Shown here: positions 21,245 through 30,423 of the stretch, piece by piece
Numbering within the stretch: the stretch's first letter is position 1
Layout: every line of letters starts with the position of its first letter
Assembly: GCA_025937835.1 (NCBI GenBank)
Contig: JAICQO010000003.1
Location: 1-64,000, forward strand
DNA length: 64,000 bases
Source of the DNA: Polyangiaceae bacterium
GTDB taxonomy: Bacteria; Myxococcota_A; Polyangia; Polyangiales; Polyangiaceae
Reading direction: 5' to 3'
The notes under the pieces: generated by a model
Seen by the model: the letters and a program-made list of their open reading frames with translations, nothing else
Database searches by the model: none
What the model was told of the DNA's origin: nothing
Position numbers and translations under genes: made by a program

Positions 21245-22093
21245 ATGTCGAAATCCACGATACTGCTGGCATTGCTTGGATTCAGCCTGGTGGGCTGCGG
21301 GTACTCGGAAGACCAGTGGCGCGCTCAACTGCAGAAGTACGGCGAGCTCGCGCACCAGTACAACGCCCAGCAACAGCAGCGCGCAGCACTGCAGGCCGAG
21401 CTCGACCACGCCAACAACGTGGTCGCTCAGCTCAAGGAGCAGCTGCAGCGGATGGGCGTGGATATCGAGGCGCTCAACGTGCAGCTCGAGCAGACCGGCT
21501 CGCAGAACAAGGAGCTCGCGAAGAGCCTGGAGGAGATGACGCGCGCGCTCGAGGAGTACAAGAACCGCGCCGCCCAACTCGAGCGGATCCGCTCACGCTT
21601 CGAGCAGCTGCGCGACAAGCTGAAGAAGCTGACAGAGCTCGGGCTGAAGGTGGAAATCCGCCGAAACCGCATGGTGATCCGCCTGCCAGGCGACGTGCTC
21701 TTCGCATCCGGCAAGGACAAGCTACGCCCCGAAGGCGTTCAGGTGCTCGACGCCGTCGCCGAGGTGATCCGCAACGACAAGCAGCTCGCGGGGCGTTTCT
21801 TCCAGGTGGCCGGTCACACCGACAACAAGCCGCTCGCGGGCGGACGCTTCATCGACAATTGGGGCCTGAGCGTGATGCGCGCACGCCAGGTGCTCGTGTA
21901 CCTGATCAGCCCGCTGGAATCGAAGACGGGCGGCGGTGGCCTCGATCCTCTTCGCCTGCACGCTGCGGGCTACGGCGAGACCGATCCGGTCATGCGGAAT
22001 GATTCGGACGAGAACCGGCAGCAGAACCGCCGCGTCGAGCTCGTGCTCATGCCCGACGTGGAAGAGATGCTGGATCTGCGATCGCTGATCTAG
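21245..22093 (+). CDS. OmpA-family lipoprotein with coiled coil
   Basis: This is a probable outer-membrane lipoprotein of 282 aa that binds peptidoglycan. The signal ends in a lipobox LVGC (Cys18). Residues about 25-135 are Gln/Glu/Leu-rich and predicted by eye as a long coiled coil. The C-terminal OmpA domain (about 145-275) has LFASGKDKLRPEG, VAGHTDNKPLAG and NRRVELVLMPD, the peptidoglycan-binding signature. It is divergent from phoB with a 158 bp shared upstream region. The coiled coil could span the periplasm; a role in envelope spacing or integrity is inference. Confidence 0.85.
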   Translation: MSKSTILLALLGFSLVGCGYSEDQWRAQLQKYGELAHQYNAQQQQRAALQAELDHANNVVAQLKEQLQRMGVDIEALNVQLEQTGSQNKELAKSLEEMTRALEEYKNRAAQLERIRSRFEQLRDKLKKLTELGLKVEIRRNRMVIRLPGDVLFASGKDKLRPEGVQVLDAVAEVIRNDKQLAGRFFQVAGHTDNKPLAGGRFIDNWGLSVMRARQVLVYLISPLESKTGGGGLDPLRLHAAGYGETDPVMRNDSDENRQQNRRVELVLMPDVEEMLDLRSLI

Positions 22094-22191
22094 TCGGCGG
22101 ATCGGCACTGTAAGTCCGTTCAGGGCCAAAAACCCCTTTCCTGCCCGAGAAACCTGCGCGACGGCCGGGGCGTAAACCTGCCTTGTGAGCC

Positions 22192-22842
22192 GTGATCGTT
22201 GCTAGCGCCGAAGCAAACCTCGGGATAGGTATCCGCAGCGTGGATGCCGATCGCGGCGTGAGGATCGCGCCGCAGCAGTCGCCTGCTGCAGCCGATGTTG
22301 CCAACGGCACTGTCGAAGCGCTGATGGAGGCGTACGTCGACGGCAGCAGCGCCGCTTTCGAGGCGCTGTATCGCCGGATTTCGAACACCGTGTATGCCTA
22401 CCTGCTCCGCCTCACCCGCAACCGCGAACGGGCGGAAGATTTGCTCCAGGTGACCTTTTCGAAGGTTCACCGAGCGCGCGGCAGCTACTTGCGAGGCGCC
22501 CCGGTTCTGCCGTGGGTGCTGGCGATCGCCCGCCGCAGCTTCCTCGACGAGCGACGTTCGGCCCGCGTCCGAACGGAAGATCTGAGCAGCGACGGCAGCT
22601 TGCCCGAGCCGCCGCCGGAACCCGCCGGCGTGTCCGCGGACGTCGCGGCTGCGCTCGAGCGCGCCCTCGACGAGCTGCCCGAAGCGTACCGAGAAGCGAT
22701 TCAGCTCACGAAGGTGTCAGGGCTCTCGATCGCGGAAGCCGCCAGCGTGCTCGGCGCCAGTGAAGCGGCGGTGAAACTCAGGGTCCACCGCGGCTACAAT
22801 CTTCTGCGCAAGCAGCTCGAAACCTTCAGTCGGCGGTCATGA
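22192..22842 (+). CDS. ECF-type RNA polymerase sigma factor
   Basis: This 216-residue protein has sigma region 2 at about 45-115 (AFEALYRRISNTVYAYLLRLT, RAEDLLQVTFSKVHRA) and region 4 at about 155-212 (LDELPEAYREAIQLTKVSGLSIAEAASVLGASEAAVKLRVHRG), with a short linker and no region 3, as in ECF factors. The GTG at 22192 adds about 40 non-conserved residues before region 2; an ATG at 22324 would give a minimal protein, so the start is uncertain. The stop overlaps the next gene, an NrsF-type anti-sigma, which fixes it as an ECF factor under membrane control. Confidence 0.88.
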   Translation: MIVASAEANLGIGIRSVDADRGVRIAPQQSPAAADVANGTVEALMEAYVDGSSAAFEALYRRISNTVYAYLLRLTRNRERAEDLLQVTFSKVHRARGSYLRGAPVLPWVLAIARRSFLDERRSARVRTEDLSSDGSLPEPPPEPAGVSADVAAALERALDELPEAYREAIQLTKVSGLSIAEAASVLGASEAAVKLRVHRGYNLLRKQLETFSRRS

Positions 22843-23543
22843 GCAACTCTCCCGAGCTCGATCCGTTGGACGACCTGCCGTGGCCGAAGGCAGGGCCCAG
22901 CGCCCACGTCTCCGCCACCATCCACAAGCAGTGCACCAAGGGCCTCGAGCCCTGCCGCGGCCCTTCCGCGGGGCATCGGATGGGCCTATCGCTCGTGGTC
23001 TCGTTCGCGGCAATCGCGATCTTGCTGCTGCTCACGCACGGCGCCGAGCGGCACGAAGAGACCTTCCACGCCGCGCTGATCGGCGCCGCGGGCTGGGGCA
23101 TCGTGCAGGCGGTCGTGCTCTGGGTGGGCTTCGCCAAGCCGCCGGGGCGCCGTTGGTCGGCCGGTGCGCGGGTCGCCGTGGCGCTGGTGTTTCCGCTGTT
23201 GTTCATCGCCTACGTCGCGTTCCTGGCGCCCGAGTGGGTGCCGTTCAGTGACTTTTTGACGGCTGCGCGTCTGGAGCGAACCGCGAGCTGCGGCGTCGTG
23301 GGGCTAATCGTCAGCGCGCTCGCCTCGCTCGGCGTGCTGACGTTGTGGCGCGGCACGGATCCTCTGAACCCGGGCGTATCCGGGGCGCTCGCTGGGTTGG
23401 TCGGGGGCATCGGCGGTGGCGTCGCGATCGGCGCGGCGTGCCCCACGCAAGAGGGTTGGCATGCGGGCGTCGCACATGGCTTGGCCGTGATCGCCTTCGT
23501 GGCGTTCGGGTGGGTGGTGGGTAGACGACTACTCGCACCGTGA
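22839..23543 (+). CDS. NrsF/DUF1109-type membrane anti-sigma factor
   Basis: This is a 234-residue membrane protein with about six helices, coupled to the ECF sigma gene by an ATGA overlap. The layout (short N-terminal cytoplasmic part with Cys32 and Cys39, first helix at about 49-65, Cys near 146, and ACPTQEGWHAGVAHG near 197) fits the NrsF/DUF1109 anti-sigma family, which in Caulobacter restrains SigF and senses redox or heavy-metal stress through Cys residues. By analogy it would hold the sigma factor at the membrane. The following thioredoxin-like gene overlaps its stop. The family call is by pattern, not by search. Confidence 0.7.
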   Translation: MSNSPELDPLDDLPWPKAGPSAHVSATIHKQCTKGLEPCRGPSAGHRMGLSLVVSFAAIAILLLLTHGAERHEETFHAALIGAAGWGIVQAVVLWVGFAKPPGRRWSAGARVAVALVFPLLFIAYVAFLAPEWVPFSDFLTAARLERTASCGVVGLIVSALASLGVLTLWRGTDPLNPGVSGALAGLVGGIGGGVAIGAACPTQEGWHAGVAHGLAVIAFVAFGWVVGRRLLAP

Positions 23544-24046
23544 AACTCCCCCGCATCCATTGGTTAGACGCTTGCATCTGGGGCGCGCTGGTCGTGCTCG
23601 CAGTGATGTTCGTGTCGCGTAAGTTTTCCGGTCCCCGCGAGGGGGTGCAGGCTGCGCTGTTCGATCTGCCGCTCGTCGGCGCGAGCGAGGGCCAGCGCTT
23701 CCGGCTCGAGGAGCACCGCGGAAAGCCGGTGTTGATCGAGGTCTTCGCGGGTTGGTGCGGCGCGTGCAAACGTTCGTCCCCGGCGCTCGCGGAAGCGTAC
23801 CGGCAGAACGCGGGCGTCTCTTTCCTCGGCGTGAGCATGGATGGCTCACCCGGCGATGCGCTGCGCGTCAAGAAGGATTGGGGCATCCCGTTCGACGTGG
23901 CGCACGACGACGGCTCGGTCGCGAAGGGTTACGACATCGAGGTGCTGCCGACCTTCATCCTGGTCGGCAAGGACGGCGTGGTGCGCCGCGTCTCGACCGG
24001 CGTCGCCAGCCCGAGTGAAGTTTCGGGCTGGCTGAGCGAGCTGTAA
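23540..24046 (+). CDS. Membrane-anchored thioredoxin-like protein (TlpA/ResA type)
   Basis: This is a 168-residue protein with an N-terminal anchor helix (about 10-26) and an extracytoplasmic thioredoxin fold. The redox motif is WCGAC at 72-76, and VLPTFIL supplies the cis-Pro region. GTG start overlaps the NrsF-type gene. Proteins of this type reduce or oxidise disulfides in the periplasm, for example in cytochrome c maturation. Here its place in an ECF/NrsF operon suggests that it adjusts the redox state of the anti-sigma cysteines or of envelope proteins; this is inference. Confidence 0.82.
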   Translation: MKLPRIHWLDACIWGALVVLAVMFVSRKFSGPREGVQAALFDLPLVGASEGQRFRLEEHRGKPVLIEVFAGWCGACKRSSPALAEAYRQNAGVSFLGVSMDGSPGDALRVKKDWGIPFDVAHDDGSVAKGYDIEVLPTFILVGKDGVVRRVSTGVASPSEVSGWLSEL

Positions 24047-24925: not shown

Positions 24926-25759
24926 ATGTCGAGGATTTGGCTCACGGTCCTATTCGCGGCCGCGCTCTCTTGCAGCGGCCGCGCACCGCTGCCGCCACGG
25001 GCCGTTGCGTTGAACGAGAGCGGCGCCCGAGCCCTCGCCGAGGGCGACCTCGAGACGGCGGATGCGCGGCTCAGCGTCGCGCTCGAGTACAGCCCGCACT
25101 TCGTTGAGGCGCTCGTCAATCTCGGCCTGGTGGAGGTCGCGCGCGGCAACTTCGCCCGCGCACGAACGCTGCTCCAGCGCGCACGGCGCCTGAATCCCGA
25201 CGTCGCCCAGCCGCATCACGCGCTCGGGATCCTCGCGGAGCGTGAACGCCGCCCCGACCAGGCGTCCCAGCATTACCGGGAAGCCCTGGCCGTAGACCCA
25301 GGTTTTTTCGCGGCACGCGCCAACCTCGGGCGCTTGCTGTTCGACGCGGGGCTGTTCGAGGACGCTCGCCTCACGTTCAAGAAGCTCTCCGAGGTTGCGC
25401 CCGACGCCGCGGTGGGCCACGCCGGTCTGGCCGAGTCGCTGATCCGCCTCGGTCGCGTCGCCGAAGCAGAGCGTGTGATCGACGCTGCATCGAAGCGCTT
25501 CCCGGACGACGGCGCGCTCTGCCTGTTGCGTGCGCGCTCCGCGTTGCGCCGGGGGCAGCCGGAGCGGGCCCGTGCGCTGCTCTTACCCCTGAGCGAGGCG
25601 CGGAGCGAGCTCACGCCCCGGGCCCTGTCCTGGTTGGCGGTCGTCGAGCTCTCGCTGGGCCACCGCAGCGAGGCGGAAAAGTTGGCGCGCCGCTCGCTGT
25701 TGCTCGATCCGGAAGACGGGTTGGCCAGGCACGTGCTCCTCGGCACGCGGCTCGAGTAA
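24926..25759 (+). CDS. TPR-repeat lipoprotein
   Basis: This 277-residue protein has a lipoprotein signal (AALSC, Cys16) and then about seven tetratricopeptide-like repeats from residue 28 to the end, recognisable by alternating Leu/Ala/Gly/Tyr and Pro at repeat ends (for example NPDVAQPHHALGILAERERRP). TPRs are protein-protein scaffolds. It is followed 9 bp later by the membrane-protein/dead-ATPase cluster and may be transcribed with it. Confidence 0.8.
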   Translation: MSRIWLTVLFAAALSCSGRAPLPPRAVALNESGARALAEGDLETADARLSVALEYSPHFVEALVNLGLVEVARGNFARARTLLQRARRLNPDVAQPHHALGILAERERRPDQASQHYREALAVDPGFFAARANLGRLLFDAGLFEDARLTFKKLSEVAPDAAVGHAGLAESLIRLGRVAEAERVIDAASKRFPDDGALCLLRARSALRRGQPERARALLLPLSEARSELTPRALSWLAVVELSLGHRSEAEKLARRSLLLDPEDGLARHVLLGTRLE

Positions 25760-25768
25760 GCTCGGCGC

Positions 25769-26428
25769 GTGGTGCGCCTTCTGCCGCTGATCCGCCTGAG
25801 CAGCCGTCGCCTGAGCGAGGCCTTCGGGATGCGCGCCGGGCGGACCTACGCGATCGGCATCAGCGTCAGCTACGCGCTGCTTCTACTGCTGCTGCCCGCG
25901 AGCACCGAGGCGCGCACGGCGGGGTTGGTGTTGAGCGAGGCGCTGCGCGCCGCGTCCTGGGCCGTGGCCGGATTCGGGGCGCTGTCCGCGGCGCGTGATC
26001 TGTCGGCTCGGGACCAGAACGACGGCGTCGTGTCCCTCGCCGGCGCGAGCGGGTATCGAGAGCGCGACGTCGTCTTCTCGCACTGGGCAGCGGGCGCGCT
26101 GCGGATCGCGTTCTGGCTGTTCGTACCGTTCGCGGCGCTCGCGCTGTTCGCCGGTCTGCGCTTCTCGACTCCGCGGTCACTCGTGTGGGCGTGCGGTTGG
26201 CTCGGGTTGGCTCTGGTCTATGCGCCGCTGCTCGGCGTGACGGCGAGCACGCTGTCGCGGGCCGCGGCGCGGCTGTTCCCGAGTCACGGCCGAACAGCGC
26301 TGCTCGTGCTCGTGTTCGTGCCTCACCTGCTACGGCTGAGCTTTCCGGGCCTGCCGAGCCTGCCGGCGGCCTTCGACGGGCTGTTGGAACGAGGAAACGA
26401 GCTGATTCAACGGCTTTCCTGGGCATGA
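25769..26428 (+). CDS. Polytopic membrane protein, possible ABC-2-like subunit
   Basis: This 219-residue protein (GTG start) has about five to six hydrophobic segments (about 28-47, 52-75, 105-128, 133-160, 170-190). A charged loop SARDLSARDQNDG near 74-86 lies between helices 2 and 3, which resembles the coupling loop of ABC-2-type exporters, where a short Ser/Arg/Gly-rich stretch faces the ATPase. It overlaps the following ATPase-like gene by ATGA. With the next two genes it forms a coupled three-gene unit. No family assigned. Confidence 0.6.
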   Translation: MVRLLPLIRLSSRRLSEAFGMRAGRTYAIGISVSYALLLLLLPASTEARTAGLVLSEALRAASWAVAGFGALSAARDLSARDQNDGVVSLAGASGYRERDVVFSHWAAGALRIAFWLFVPFAALALFAGLRFSTPRSLVWACGWLGLALVYAPLLGVTASTLSRAAARLFPSHGRTALLVLVFVPHLLRLSFPGLPSLPAAFDGLLERGNELIQRLSWA

Positions 26429-27351
26429 CCGAGCTCCGCCTCACCCACGCTTTCGCTCATGGGCTCGGCCCGCTGAACGCGCAGTTTTCCATCGGGCTGT
26501 CAGTGGTGCTCGGCGCATCGCCGAGAGACCTGTCGAGTCTGTGTGAGCTGCTCGCCGGAGTGCGCCCGCCGCGGCAGGGGCACGTCACGCTCGACGGCGA
26601 GGAGCTCGGCGATCGCCCGAGCGCGCGACGGCGTGTGCTGTCGCTTCTCGCCGACGAAGAGCTGCTCGCGCGGAGCAGCGTGCGAGAAGCGTTGTCGGAG
26701 GCGTGCACGCTGCGCGGCTCGCGCCCAGCCGTCGACGGCTGGCTCGCCGAAGCCGGCGTCGCGGACCTCGGCTCGCGCAGCCCCGGGAACCTGAGCCCGG
26801 ACGAGCGGCGCGCCGCCGTGCTGTCGCTCGCGCTGGGAACAGAAGCTGCGGCTCTGGTGACGCTCTACGAGCCGCTGCTGCTCGTTCCTCGTGTCTCGGA
26901 GCGCTTCCTGATCGAGGGGTGCAGGCGCCGTGCCGAGCAGGCGGTCGTGGTCGTCCTCACCACGTCGATCGAGCACGCGCTGCGCCTCGGGGGTGCGGTG
27001 TTTTGGCTCGAGCGCGGACGGATCGAAGGTCCGGCCGAGGCGGCGCCGGGAGGTCTCCACTGGTTCACGCTGAGCGTGCGAGGCGGCGACGCGGAGGCCC
27101 TGGCCGGCGCACTCGCTCAGGATCCGGACGTGGGCGGGGTCGGGTTCGACAGGCAACGGAACGCCGCCGAGCTCTGGGTGCGCGGCAGCGATCCCGAGCG
27201 ACTCGCGGCGTGCATTGGCCGCCACGCCCACACCCTCGGCATCGCACTCGACACGCTGCGTCCCGCGCTGCCGACGCTCGAGTCGGTCTTGCTGAGCCGC
27301 GCTGGCTGGACGGATCCGAGCTATCACCGCGCTGCGGGGGCTCCACGATGA
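26425..27351 (+). CDS. ABC-ATPase-like protein lacking catalytic motifs
   Basis: The 308-residue protein keeps the overall order of an ABC ATPase, but each catalytic motif is altered. The P-loop place reads LGASPRDLSSL (29-39) with no GKS/T. The signature is LSPDE (123-127) instead of LSGGQ. Walker B is LVTLYEP, with Tyr148 for the Mg-binding Asp and Glu149 kept. The H-loop region is LTTS, with Thr180 in place of His. Helical and beta elements around them still look like the family. ATP binding and hydrolysis therefore seem unlikely. It is coupled to membrane-protein genes on both sides by ATGA overlaps, so it probably works as a structural or regulatory cytoplasmic subunit. Calling it ABC-derived is my inference from motif order. 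Confidence 0.65.
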   Translation: MTELRLTHAFAHGLGPLNAQFSIGLSVVLGASPRDLSSLCELLAGVRPPRQGHVTLDGEELGDRPSARRRVLSLLADEELLARSSVREALSEACTLRGSRPAVDGWLAEAGVADLGSRSPGNLSPDERRAAVLSLALGTEAAALVTLYEPLLLVPRVSERFLIEGCRRRAEQAVVVVLTTSIEHALRLGGAVFWLERGRIEGPAEAAPGGLHWFTLSVRGGDAEALAGALAQDPDVGGVGFDRQRNAAELWVRGSDPERLAACIGRHAHTLGIALDTLRPALPTLESVLLSRAGWTDPSYHRAAGAPR

Positions 27352-28031
27352 GCGTGCTGGTCCGGTCTTTGCTCGAAGGGGCGCGTGGTGTTCGAAACGT
27401 GCGCGCGCTGATCGTGGCGTGCGTTGCGCTTTCGTTGGGACCGGTCATCGCCAAGCTGGCGCCGAGCTCGGGGGCGAGCGCGGCAGACGACGCTTTGCGA
27501 GCCGGCGTGTTCGGCATTGCGCTGCCGCTGGCCGCGTACCTGAGCGCTGAAGCCATTCTGCAGGGGAAAACTCTGGACCAGGCGGCGCGCCGTATCGCTC
27601 GCTACGGAACCAGCGGGCGGCTCGCCGGGCTCGGTCTGGTTCTGGCGCTGGCCGCGGTGTCGATCGCGGCTGCGTTGCTCGGCTCCGTGGCTGCGCTGCT
27701 CGGCGCCTACCCCGCGCACGGTTCGGATTTCTATGGTGACCTTTTTCGCTCACTGCCGATCGCGGCCACGGCCGGGGCGGCTTACGCAGGCTGGTACGCG
27801 CTCGCCTCGTGCTTCGGCGCGCGCGGCGGCGGCAGAAAATGGTTGCTGGGGCTGGACTGGGTGCTTGGCGCATCGAGCGGTGTTTTGGCTGCGCCGTGGC
27901 CCCGCGGGCACGTGCGGAATCTGCTCGGGGGGAGCCCCGTGCTCGAGCTGAGCCAAGCTGGGGCATTCGGGGTACTGCTGCTCGGCACGAGTCTTGCGGT
28001 GCTCGCTGCGATCGCGCGCTCCCACGACTGA
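27348..28031 (+). CDS. Polytopic membrane protein, third gene of the dead-ATPase unit
   Basis: This 227-residue membrane protein has about six hydrophobic segments (about 17-36, 50-66, 90-118, 134-150, 163-178, 204-222). Between helices 2 and 3 is a charged loop (QGKTLDQAARRIARYGTSGR, about 68-87), again like the coupling loop of ABC-2-type permeases. It starts inside the stop of the ATPase-like gene (ATGA). Its stop shares one base with the start of the next gene. It probably forms a heteromeric membrane complex with the protein encoded at 25769. Confidence 0.6.
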   Translation: MSVLVRSLLEGARGVRNVRALIVACVALSLGPVIAKLAPSSGASAADDALRAGVFGIALPLAAYLSAEAILQGKTLDQAARRIARYGTSGRLAGLGLVLALAAVSIAAALLGSVAALLGAYPAHGSDFYGDLFRSLPIAATAGAAYAGWYALASCFGARGGGRKWLLGLDWVLGASSGVLAAPWPRGHVRNLLGGSPVLELSQAGAFGVLLLGTSLAVLAAIARSHD

Positions 28032-28825
28032 TGCTTCGTGCCTCGGTTCGGAACGGCTCGACCCGGATTGAGGCCCCCGGAAACTGCGCTACGCTCCCGC
28101 GAAACGTGCAGGGTATTGCCTACCAGTTCGGAAGCTTGGACGAGTTCGCCGGTGCTCTCGATTCGAGCGGCGACGAGCAGGATTTGGCCCTGCCCTGCAA
28201 CGACGGCGTGCGAGACGGCGAGTGGTTGCTGGTGACGGTGGCCATCGGAGAAGACACGACCAGCGTCGCCGGACGAGTTCGCGATCGCGGCAGCGAGCTG
28301 CGCCTCACGTTCGAAGAGCGCGACTGGCACAGGCTGCAGCGCTTCGCGCGCGGCGAGAGCTCGCCGTCCATCCCTCCGCCGAGCCTCGGGCAACAGCCGG
28401 AGTCGGTGTGCGCGCCCGAGGGCTCGACGGCGCTCGTGATCGACGCCGACACCAAGGTTCTGGGGCTCGTGACGGCGCTGCTCGACGCGTGCGGCGTGCG
28501 CACGGAAGCCGCGCACGGCGCGGAGGAGGCGCTCGATCGCCTGCGCTCCGAGCACTTCGACCTGATCGTCGTCGAATCGTCGCTCGACGGGATGAGCGGG
28601 CTCGAGCTGTGCCGCCGCGTGCGCGCCGATCCGGTGCTGTCGAGCACGCCGCTGCTCGTGGTGTCGTCGCACGCCTCCACGCGAGACATGCAAGAGGCGC
28701 TGGCCGCGGGCGCGGACGACTTCGTGCCCAAGCCGTTCCGCGCGCTCGAGCTGCGCGCGCGCGCCGTCGGCTTGATCCGACGAGCGATCGTGTTCGGGGG
28801 CCCGGCTCCCGCCCGGCTCGAGTGA
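28031..28825 (+). CDS. PilZ-like/receiver protein with Asp-to-Glu phosphosite
   Basis: The 264-residue protein has an N-terminal domain (about 20-105) of PilZ-like beta-barrel character (the ...GEWLLVTVAI...GRVRDRGSELRLTF pattern) and a C-terminal receiver domain (about 132-255). In the receiver the acidic pocket is kept (IDAD, Asp138/Asp140), as are Ser212/213 and Lys234 (PKPF), but the phospho-accepting Asp is replaced by Glu182 (VVESSLDGMSG). This could lock the domain in an active-like state. The ATG at 28031 overlaps the previous stop by one base; a GTG at 28107 is an alternative. Assignment of the N-terminal domain is tentative. Confidence 0.72.
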   Translation: MLRASVRNGSTRIEAPGNCATLPRNVQGIAYQFGSLDEFAGALDSSGDEQDLALPCNDGVRDGEWLLVTVAIGEDTTSVAGRVRDRGSELRLTFEERDWHRLQRFARGESSPSIPPPSLGQQPESVCAPEGSTALVIDADTKVLGLVTALLDACGVRTEAAHGAEEALDRLRSEHFDLIVVESSLDGMSGLELCRRVRADPVLSSTPLLVVSSHASTRDMQEALAAGADDFVPKPFRALELRARAVGLIRRAIVFGGPAPARLE

Positions 28826-28857: not shown

Positions 28858-30423
28858 TCAGTTCTCGCGGAAGGCTTCGGCGGGGCGCAGCTTCGCCGCG
28901 TGTCGCGCCGGGCCGACGGTCGCGACCAGGCACACCAGGATCGCGAACACGCCGACCCAGACGAAATCGCTGAGCCGCACGATCACCGGCAGCCGCGAGA
29001 TGAAATAGACCTTGGGATCGAGCGGCAGGCCGTAGACGAGGAGGCCCTTGCAGATCGCGAGCCCGAGCCCGAGGCCGATCACCGTGCCGACCACGCCGAT
29101 CAACGTGCCCTGGTAGACGAAGGTCCGGAGCAGCTGCCCGTCGCTCGCGCCCATCGCCTTCAGCACCGCGATTTCGCGCTTTTTGTCGATCACGATCATG
29201 ATCAGCGTCGCGATCACCGTGAAGGCCGCGACCACGATGATCAACGCCAGGACCAGGCTCATCAAGATCTGCTGGATGCGTAGGGCCGTGAACAGACCGT
29301 GGTTCAGCTCCTCCCAATCCATGGTGTGGTAGATGCCGCTCTTCAGCCTGTCCTCGATGTCGCGCGAGATCTGCCGCGCCTGATCGATGTCCGCGACCTT
29401 CATCTCGATGCCGGTCACGCTGTCGCCGGCGTCGTAGAAAATCTGAGCTTCGTACAGGTCCGTGTAGACGAGCTTCGCGTCGTACTGATCGAACCCCGCG
29501 TCGAAGATCGCGATCACGCGGAACTGCCGCGCGACCGGCGCGCGGATCGCGCCGCGCGAATACGAGAAGCCGATCGTCGGCGACGTCACCTGGATACAGC
29601 CGCCGACGCCCACGCTCAGGTTCCGCGCCAGCGTGCGGCCGATCACGATCCCCGGTAGCGCGGAGACCTTGACCGCGTCCGCGCAGGGGTCCGGGTCGAG
29701 CTCCTCGGGGATGAGGTCATCCTCGGGCAGCACGCTCTCGTAGCCACCCTCGGGGACGACGCTGCCCTCCGGCAGATATCCGGAATTTTCTGGCACCGCG
29801 CTGGCGGGCGGCGCGGCGAAAGGAGCCTTGGCCGAGTCGGCCGCGGTCGCGTCGATCAGGTCTTCGATCTCGTCCAGGACCGACTTCTCGGGCGCCTTGG
29901 CGGCGGGTTTGTCGAGCGCCAGATCGTTGAGCCGGGTGTCGAGGCCGCGGCGGCGGCGCTCGGGGGGCTTGGCGTTCCGTGCGCGCAAACCCTGCAAGCT
30001 CCCCTCGACGATGTGGCGCGGCAGATCGAGCACCTTGCCGACGCGATCGGGATCGACCCCTTTGACCAGGACGCCGGTCGCGGTGCGCTCGCCGTGCGTC
30101 ACCATCATCGGGCTGATCACGAAGGGCGCGATGCCGACGACACCCGGCATGCCCTTCAGCTGCTCCATGATCTTGCGGTACTCGCTGAAGTCGCTCGAGT
30201 ACTTGAGCACCAGCACGTGCGCGTTGACGCCCAGGACCTTCTCGCGAAACTGCGCGCGGAAGCCGCCGGTGACGCTGATCACCGTCGCGAGCGCCGCGAC
30301 ACCGAGCGCAACACCCAGGATCGCGAACAAGGTCCCGACCGAAACGAACGCGCGCTTCTTGGAGCGCATGTAACGAAGCGCGAGCTCGAGCGGGAACTCC
30401 ATTTGGGGGCTCGGGTTTACCAT
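28858..30423 (-). CDS. LolC/LolE-type ABC transporter permease with long periplasmic insert
   Basis: This 521-residue permease is of the lipoprotein-releasing (LolCDE) family. It has one N-terminal helix (about 26-52) after the LALRYMRSKKRAF motif, a large periplasmic domain, and three C-terminal helices (about 395-425, 440-470, 488-510) of the FtsX type, with the EIAVLKAMGASDGQLLRTF coupling region. It is about 110 residues longer than usual, due to an Arg/Pro/Asp/Glu-rich insert at about 145-255. It stands alone: no lolD ATPase lies beside it, so the ATPase must be encoded elsewhere. Start at 30423, with an ATG at 30402 as an alternative. Confidence 0.87.
   Translation of the reverse strand: MVNPSPQMEFPLELALRYMRSKKRAFVSVGTLFAILGVALGVAALATVISVTGGFRAQFREKVLGVNAHVLVLKYSSDFSEYRKIMEQLKGMPGVVGIAPFVISPMMVTHGERTATGVLVKGVDPDRVGKVLDLPRHIVEGSLQGLRARNAKPPERRRRGLDTRLNDLALDKPAAKAPEKSVLDEIEDLIDATAADSAKAPFAAPPASAVPENSGYLPEGSVVPEGGYESVLPEDDLIPEELDPDPCADAVKVSALPGIVIGRTLARNLSVGVGGCIQVTSPTIGFSYSRGAIRAPVARQFRVIAIFDAGFDQYDAKLVYTDLYEAQIFYDAGDSVTGIEMKVADIDQARQISRDIEDRLKSGIYHTMDWEELNHGLFTALRIQQILMSLVLALIIVVAAFTVIATLIMIVIDKKREIAVLKAMGASDGQLLRTFVYQGTLIGVVGTVIGLGLGLAICKGLLVYGLPLDPKVYFISRLPVIVRLSDFVWVGVFAILVCLVATVGPARHAAKLRPAEAFREN

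Follow-up and report, generated by a model that had tools for sequence, protein, structure and literature searches.

ATP-driven cassettes are the defining feature of ABC complexes, in which two cassettes dock via coupling helices on two transmembrane domains, and in the degenerate ABC cases known to us, one site or more can still work or bind. We questioned whether a cassette that has lost most of its catalytic motifs could persist as part of a conserved membrane complex, a question raised by three genes in a 64,000-nucleotide stretch of bacterial DNA (the whole stretch is referred to here as the window). The genes, designated mem1, mid and mem2, are arranged as follows:

25769–26428, forward strand: mem1, an open reading frame with a GTG start encoding 219 aa; first membrane protein, putative divergent ABC-2-like permease half
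26425–27351, forward strand: mid, ATG start, 308 aa; predicted pseudo-ABC ATPase
27348–28031, forward strand: mem2, ATG start, 227 aa; second membrane protein, putative divergent ABC-2-like permease half, and the best marker of the system

At both junctions (mem1/mid and mid/mem2) consecutive genes overlap by four bases (ATGA), which is also the commonest spacing at both positions across the related loci described below. In three loci (L021/L110, L022/L114 and L064), mid and mem2 are fused into one open reading frame, an arrangement that argues for joint action of their products:

L064, 7779–9263, reverse strand: mid-mem2 fusion, the cassette part of which is too diverged for Pfam recognition
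L110 (G049) and L114 (G030): pseudo-cassette and mem2 naturally joined in one protein

The middle protein of the window exceeded the cut-off of Pfam ABC_tran (E 6.7e-6; 27.2 bits, cut-off 25) and matched a solved ABC ATPase (PDB 2onk, E 3e-8), and ABC_tran was matched at E<=1 by 20 of 26 mid family members. When the mid family profile was searched against all PDB sequences, the cassettes of ABCA7, ABCA3 and ABCA4 ranked first (E 1e-42 to 1e-35), implying type V/ABC-2 ancestry, with profile positions ~7–202 covered in the ABCA matches (ABCA7, E 2e-42). Judged from these matches, mid is a full-length ABC cassette. Two readings of the initial annotation, that the middle protein is ABC-ATPase-like and that it is translationally coupled to a membrane protein on either side, are thus borne out by the Pfam, PDB and ABCA profile matches and by the ATGA overlaps, respectively. 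An AlphaFold model of the window mid, built from the single sequence, was too poor for a fold search (pLDDT 40). Beyond the cassette lies a second domain:

27037–27294, forward strand: C-terminal regulatory-type domain of mid (~residues 205–290), with a resemblance, and a resemblance only, to DrrA1-3_C of ABC-2 ATPases

Only one of 26 mid members matched DrrA1-3_C (at E 0.18), and the domain adopts a beta-alpha-beta-beta-alpha order in the low-confidence model (pLDDT 40). In two loci from genomes of the same genus (L018 in G007, L019 in G003), mid ends at ~residue 205–216 without any C-terminal domain, so this domain appears to be dispensable in some members.

We assessed the catalytic motifs by aligning mid members to an intact relative from locus L066 (described below), with the number of readable members varying by site (76–80). 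The corresponding positions in the window are:

26512–26538, forward strand: degenerate Walker A (residues 30–38, GASPRDLSS), with Leu36 at the Lys position
26644–26661, forward strand: Q-loop region (residues 74–79, LLADEE), with Ala76 at the Gln position
26791–26808, forward strand: degenerate ABC signature (residues 123–128, LSPDER in place of LSGGQ; LSPDE is 123–127)
26854–26874, forward strand: degenerate Walker B (residues 144–150, LVTLYEP region), with Tyr148 at the Asp position and Glu149-Pro150 kept
26959–26967, forward strand: degenerate H-loop (residues 179–181, TTS), with Thr180 at the His position

The window mid (GASPRDLS) does not fit the Walker A pattern G-x4-G-K-[ST], and the Walker A Lys was found in 0 of 76 readable members. 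Across the family, the consensus G-[TA]-P-x-D-G-T replaces GPNGAGKST, with Asp at P-loop position 5 in 62/77 and Gly at position 6 in 63/77; the window protein deviates from this consensus at R34-D35, yet has the common losses. The Q-loop Gln was present in one of 78 readable members. No member has LSGGQ: a Glu occupies the position of the signature Gln in 64/80, and Arg129 is found in 74/80. Similarly, the H-loop His was absent from all 80 members (Ser or Ala in 63), while Thr179 occurs in 68/80. The Walker B Asp position was more variable (among 80 members, His in 26, Glu in 16, Asp in 10, Tyr in 8 and Phe in 8). Every readable member lacks the Walker A Lys, LSGGQ and the H-loop His, which argues against chance. 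The initial annotation had stated that all catalytic residues were gone; the individual losses it named (at Leu36, LSPDE, Tyr148 and Thr180) are confirmed, but "all" was wrong, since Glu149, at the position of the catalytic Glu, and Pro150 are retained in the window, as in 75/80 and 78/80 members, respectively. Because the Lys and His are absent and the P-loop usually contains an acidic residue, binding and hydrolysis of ATP by mid are unlikely, although the persistence of Glu149-Pro150, together with DEP kept in a few members, could reflect a residual nucleotide-related role.

In 97 related genomes searched at the protein level, we found ~30 clear mid orthologues (27–41% identity), nearly all adjoining mem2-like genes. 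Using a mem2 profile, we found one good copy each in 86 of 108 genomes, representing 42 of the 48 genera of the family to which the window belongs (probably Polyangiaceae); outside this family, across the sampled remainder of the order and phylum, matches were merely scattered. Of the 86 loci examined, 85 come from the window's family; the exception, L065, belongs to a different family of the order, and a degenerate triad was also present in a second genome of that other family (L256). A search for related loci found one MAG contig (L082). A recognisable mid lies beside mem2 in 80 of the 86 loci, the remaining six being contig ends or cut contigs (four) or loci with an extremely diverged mid (L065, and the mid-mem2 fusion of L064). 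Orthologues of mem1 were detected by profile upstream of mid in 64/86.

Pairs of related genomes with >60% identity gave dN/dS values for mid of 0.14–0.51, comparable to those of mem1 and mem2 from these pairs, supporting the trio as a conserved unit under purifying selection. Among intact ABC-2 pairs of the same genomes, the ATPase was more conserved than the permease in 205 of 231 pairs. In contrast, mid and mem2 were equally conserved (mean 0.381 each, from local identities, a rough measure), which fits a lifted catalytic constraint on mid. The proposal that the trio reflects conservation and not decay thus holds, given its occurrence in 86/108 genomes, the dN/dS range, the conserved replacement residues and the mid-mem2 fusions. 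Orthologous triads share the losses in all readable members at this low dN/dS, and close orthologues are as dead as the window copy, intact relatives being found only at a distance (L066 and L258).

In a tree with 30 intact ABC-2 ATPases of the same phylum, a branch with SH-aLRT 98 separates the pseudo-cassettes from the intact proteins. After removal of the motif columns, the pseudo-cassettes were not strictly one group and the label required two changes, so a single loss of the ATPase motifs is likely but not proven. The operon in L066 is organised as follows:

L066, 1018–4609 (G114, from another family of the phylum): coupled genes in the order ATPase-permease-ATPase-permease, with both ABC-2 ATPases intact

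Its second ATPase-permease pair is an intact relative of mid-mem2: the genes are likewise coupled, the second ATPase matches the mid profile (E 6e-41) and the permease matches mem2 (E 3e-7). However, both L066 ATPases are intact (LGPNGAGKS), and the L066 permeases match PF12679 (one over the cut-off, the other at E 8e-4). L258 contains another intact relative.

Neither mem1 nor mem2 matched any Pfam or NCBIfam family, and PDB searches with the profiles of both returned no meaningful match. Profile-profile alignment (hhalign) gave weak matches of mem1 to ABC-2 permeases (ABC2_membrane_2) of the same genomes (P 5.5e-4; 0.16 for the BPD_transp_1 control) and of mem2 to ABC-2 permeases of the same genomes (P 1.9e-4 over 207 columns; control, 0.24), while an extended mem2 profile that included the L066 permease matched two PF12679 permeases at E 2–3e-4. 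Together, these results are suggestive of an ABC-2 permease fold in both proteins. Three segments stand out:

25994–26077, forward strand: charged segment of mem1, predicted to be cytoplasmic (residues 76–103, RDLSARDQNDGVVSLAGASGYRERDVVF), at the ABC-2 coupling-helix position
27564–27635, forward strand: charged segment of mem2, predicted to be cytoplasmic (residues 73–96, GKTLDQAARRIARYGTSGRLAGLG), at the coupling-helix position
27816–27932, forward strand: mem2 signature segment (residues 157–195, GxxGGGRxxxLxxDWxLGSxxGxxAxPWPRGHVRNLLGG)

Both charged segments follow TM2 and were placed by hhalign on the ABC-2 coupling segment. In mem1 this segment carries the motif D-x3-G-x3-L-x4-G, the D, G, L and G of which are conserved in 79–94% of mem1 proteins, and in mem2 G87 is conserved in 99%. 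The early remark that both proteins keep loops like the coupling loops of ABC-2 permeases is in line with this conserved mem1 motif and with the weak permease matches. Within the signature segment, D170, G174, P185, L192 and G194 are conserved in 98–99% of the 86 mem2 sequences. Charged or polar residues of mem2 near the membrane (R163, D170, H188 and Y146) are strongly conserved; of these, D170 is also found in the ABC-2-like permease encoded in L066, where the system is intact. Hydropathy and a low-confidence AlphaFold model of mem2 (built with the single relative L082; pLDDT 45, too poor for a fold search) suggest the order helix, TM, TM, short helix, TM, TM, TM, TM, which would fit the type V layout of an elbow helix and six TM helices, with the coupling helix following the second of these.

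Two accessory genes flank the trio in the window:

24926–25759, forward strand: TPR lipoprotein-like gene (Pfam TPR), ending 9 bases upstream of mem1
28031–28825, forward strand: response-regulator (REC) protein (Pfam Response_reg, E 1e-21), overlapping the mem2 stop as TGATG

Counting the window, homologues of the TPR gene lie just upstream of mem1 in 12 loci, and those of the response regulator downstream of mem2 in 22 of 84. Both accompany a subclade only, and the neighbours of the trio gave no hint of its function. No intact ABC ATPase gene was found as a neighbour of the trio; an intact ABC open reading frame occurs in two of the 86 stretches and is adjacent in neither. An anti-phage defence system was also considered and rejected, as no PADLOC model matched at E<=0.01. 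Several further features of the region were observed. The response-regulator gene (28031–28825) encodes ~130 residues N-terminal to its REC domain. Upstream of the trio (21245–24046) are genes for an OmpA-like lipoprotein, an ECF sigma factor, a probable membrane anti-sigma and a thioredoxin-like protein, homologues of which are found in several related loci (e.g. L077 and L078). Downstream, on the reverse strand (28858–30423), a LolC/E-like permease gene, a conserved neighbour in seven related loci, has a ~100-residue Ala/Pro/Glu-rich insertion in the periplasmic region. In related loci a Ser/Thr protein kinase gene (L077, 11326–12996) lies between the LolC/E-like and tRNA nucleotidyltransferase genes, and is absent from that position in the window.

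Considering this evidence together, we think it rather probable that the trio encodes a type V-like complex of ABC-2 ancestry, in which two different permease-like subunits are accompanied by a conserved pseudo-ATPase that serves as a scaffold or regulator without ATP hydrolysis of its own. With ATP handling by mid unlikely and no intact ATPase encoded nearby, an ATP-independent complex is the simplest reading, in which the cassette would act as a scaffold or be moved, like a lever, by a partner. Two copies of mid would bind mem1 and mem2 at their cytoplasmic coupling segments; without hydrolysing ATP, the docked pair may clamp the two permease subunits together, either rigidly or under the control of a partner, or, alternatively, may relay a conformational signal between cytoplasm and envelope. 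In the subclade of the window, the overlapping downstream response regulator is, speculatively, a candidate cytoplasmic partner. A non-transport or regulatory role of the trio, as initially suggested, is a reasonable proposal. More tentatively, and as something possible rather than probable, the trio may represent an entire ATP-free branch of ABC-type machines, inherited vertically and acting as a receptor, a regulator or a gradient-driven transporter; it would then be an ABC counterpart of pseudokinases.

Other readings of the same loci have to be weighed against this complex. The machine might still be ATP-driven if mid were to form a heterodimer, one half dead and one live, with an intact ABC-2 ATPase encoded elsewhere, an arrangement akin to that of degenerate-site exporters or of fused importers such as RbsA/NupO. 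ABC proteins commonly pair degenerate with active sites (PMC11466899). The distant relative L066, with its two intact ATPases and two permeases, is also compatible with such an arrangement. However, in the degenerate-site heterodimers that we know of, the two halves are encoded together, and no intact ATPase is adjacent to the trio (two of 86 stretches, neither adjacent), making this reading unlikely. We regard a passive or ion-gradient-driven transporter or channel, with the cassette kept solely as an assembly part, as distinctly unlikely. The strong conservation of R163, D170, H188 and Y146 near the membrane would suit it, as would the ABC proteins turned channel (CFTR) or channel regulator (SUR1) (PMC8386196), but the neighbouring genes suggest neither a substrate nor an energy source, and D170, being shared with the ABC-2-like permease of L066, is not specific to an ATP-free state.

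A sensor role for mid, with nucleotide still bound but in a changed manner, is very unlikely. Most members do keep the P-loop Gly positions and the Walker B Glu-Pro, and the cassette as a whole is preserved in them, but the P-loop has lost its Lys (0/76) and usually carries an Asp unfavourable to phosphate at position 5 (62/77), and the Q-loop, signature and H-loop are lost as well. Scarcely credible is the ordinary decay of a redundant ABC transporter, with mid a pseudogene in progress. Such decay might be read from dN/dS values of up to 0.5 in some pairs, and from mid being no better conserved than its membrane partner, unlike intact ABC-2 ATPases. Against it, frames are open in 80 loci from some 40 genera, dN/dS is well below 1, the coupling is preserved, most genomes carry a single copy and the replacement motifs are conserved. 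A decaying pseudogene or an assembly artefact was accordingly rejected on the basis of presence in 86 genomes, open frames and dN/dS of 0.14–0.51.

If the favoured reading of a scaffolding or regulatory pseudo-ATPase is correct, ABC architecture would be useful without ATP, in a complex present as a single copy in most species of a family. The trio would also be a natural system for asking what a cassette contributes mechanically once catalysis is removed.

Among known systems, those of type V/ABC-2 (ABCA, ABCG, Wzm-Wzt, TarGH, NosFY and DrrAB) resemble the trio in their cassettes, the best solved relatives of mid being ABCA-type nucleotide-binding domains; type V includes the ABCA, ABCG and Wzm systems (PMC8386196). 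The membrane proteins are also alike in that mem1 and mem2 are ~220 aa long and show weak ABC-2 profile similarity, and the segment linking TM2 to TM3 is charged in both. However, mid is without ATP-handling motifs, no intact ATPase is encoded with the trio, and the permease halves, which differ from each other, have diverged beyond Pfam recognition.

Cassettes that have been retained despite losing the signature and the Walker A Lys are known from ABC proteins with one degenerate site (PMC11466899, PMC12038006). BmrCD, TM287/288, CFTR, SUR1 and RbsA/NupO resemble mid in this respect, but in these systems the dead half accompanies a live half, whereas the only cassette encoded by the trio is dead. 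In the open-licence literature we found degenerate single sites and no precedent for an ABC cassette with every site dead. FtsEX, a type VII signal transmitter and not a transporter, is an earlier example of envelope proteins being regulated by an ABC complex. It differs in its ATPase, FtsE, which is intact, and in the MacB-type fold of FtsX, and we saw no sequence relation of FtsEX to mem1 or mem2. An FtsEX ATPase mutant can still rescue some ftsEX defects (PMC7343993), implying that ABC complexes can be signal devices, some roles of which survive without ATP hydrolysis.
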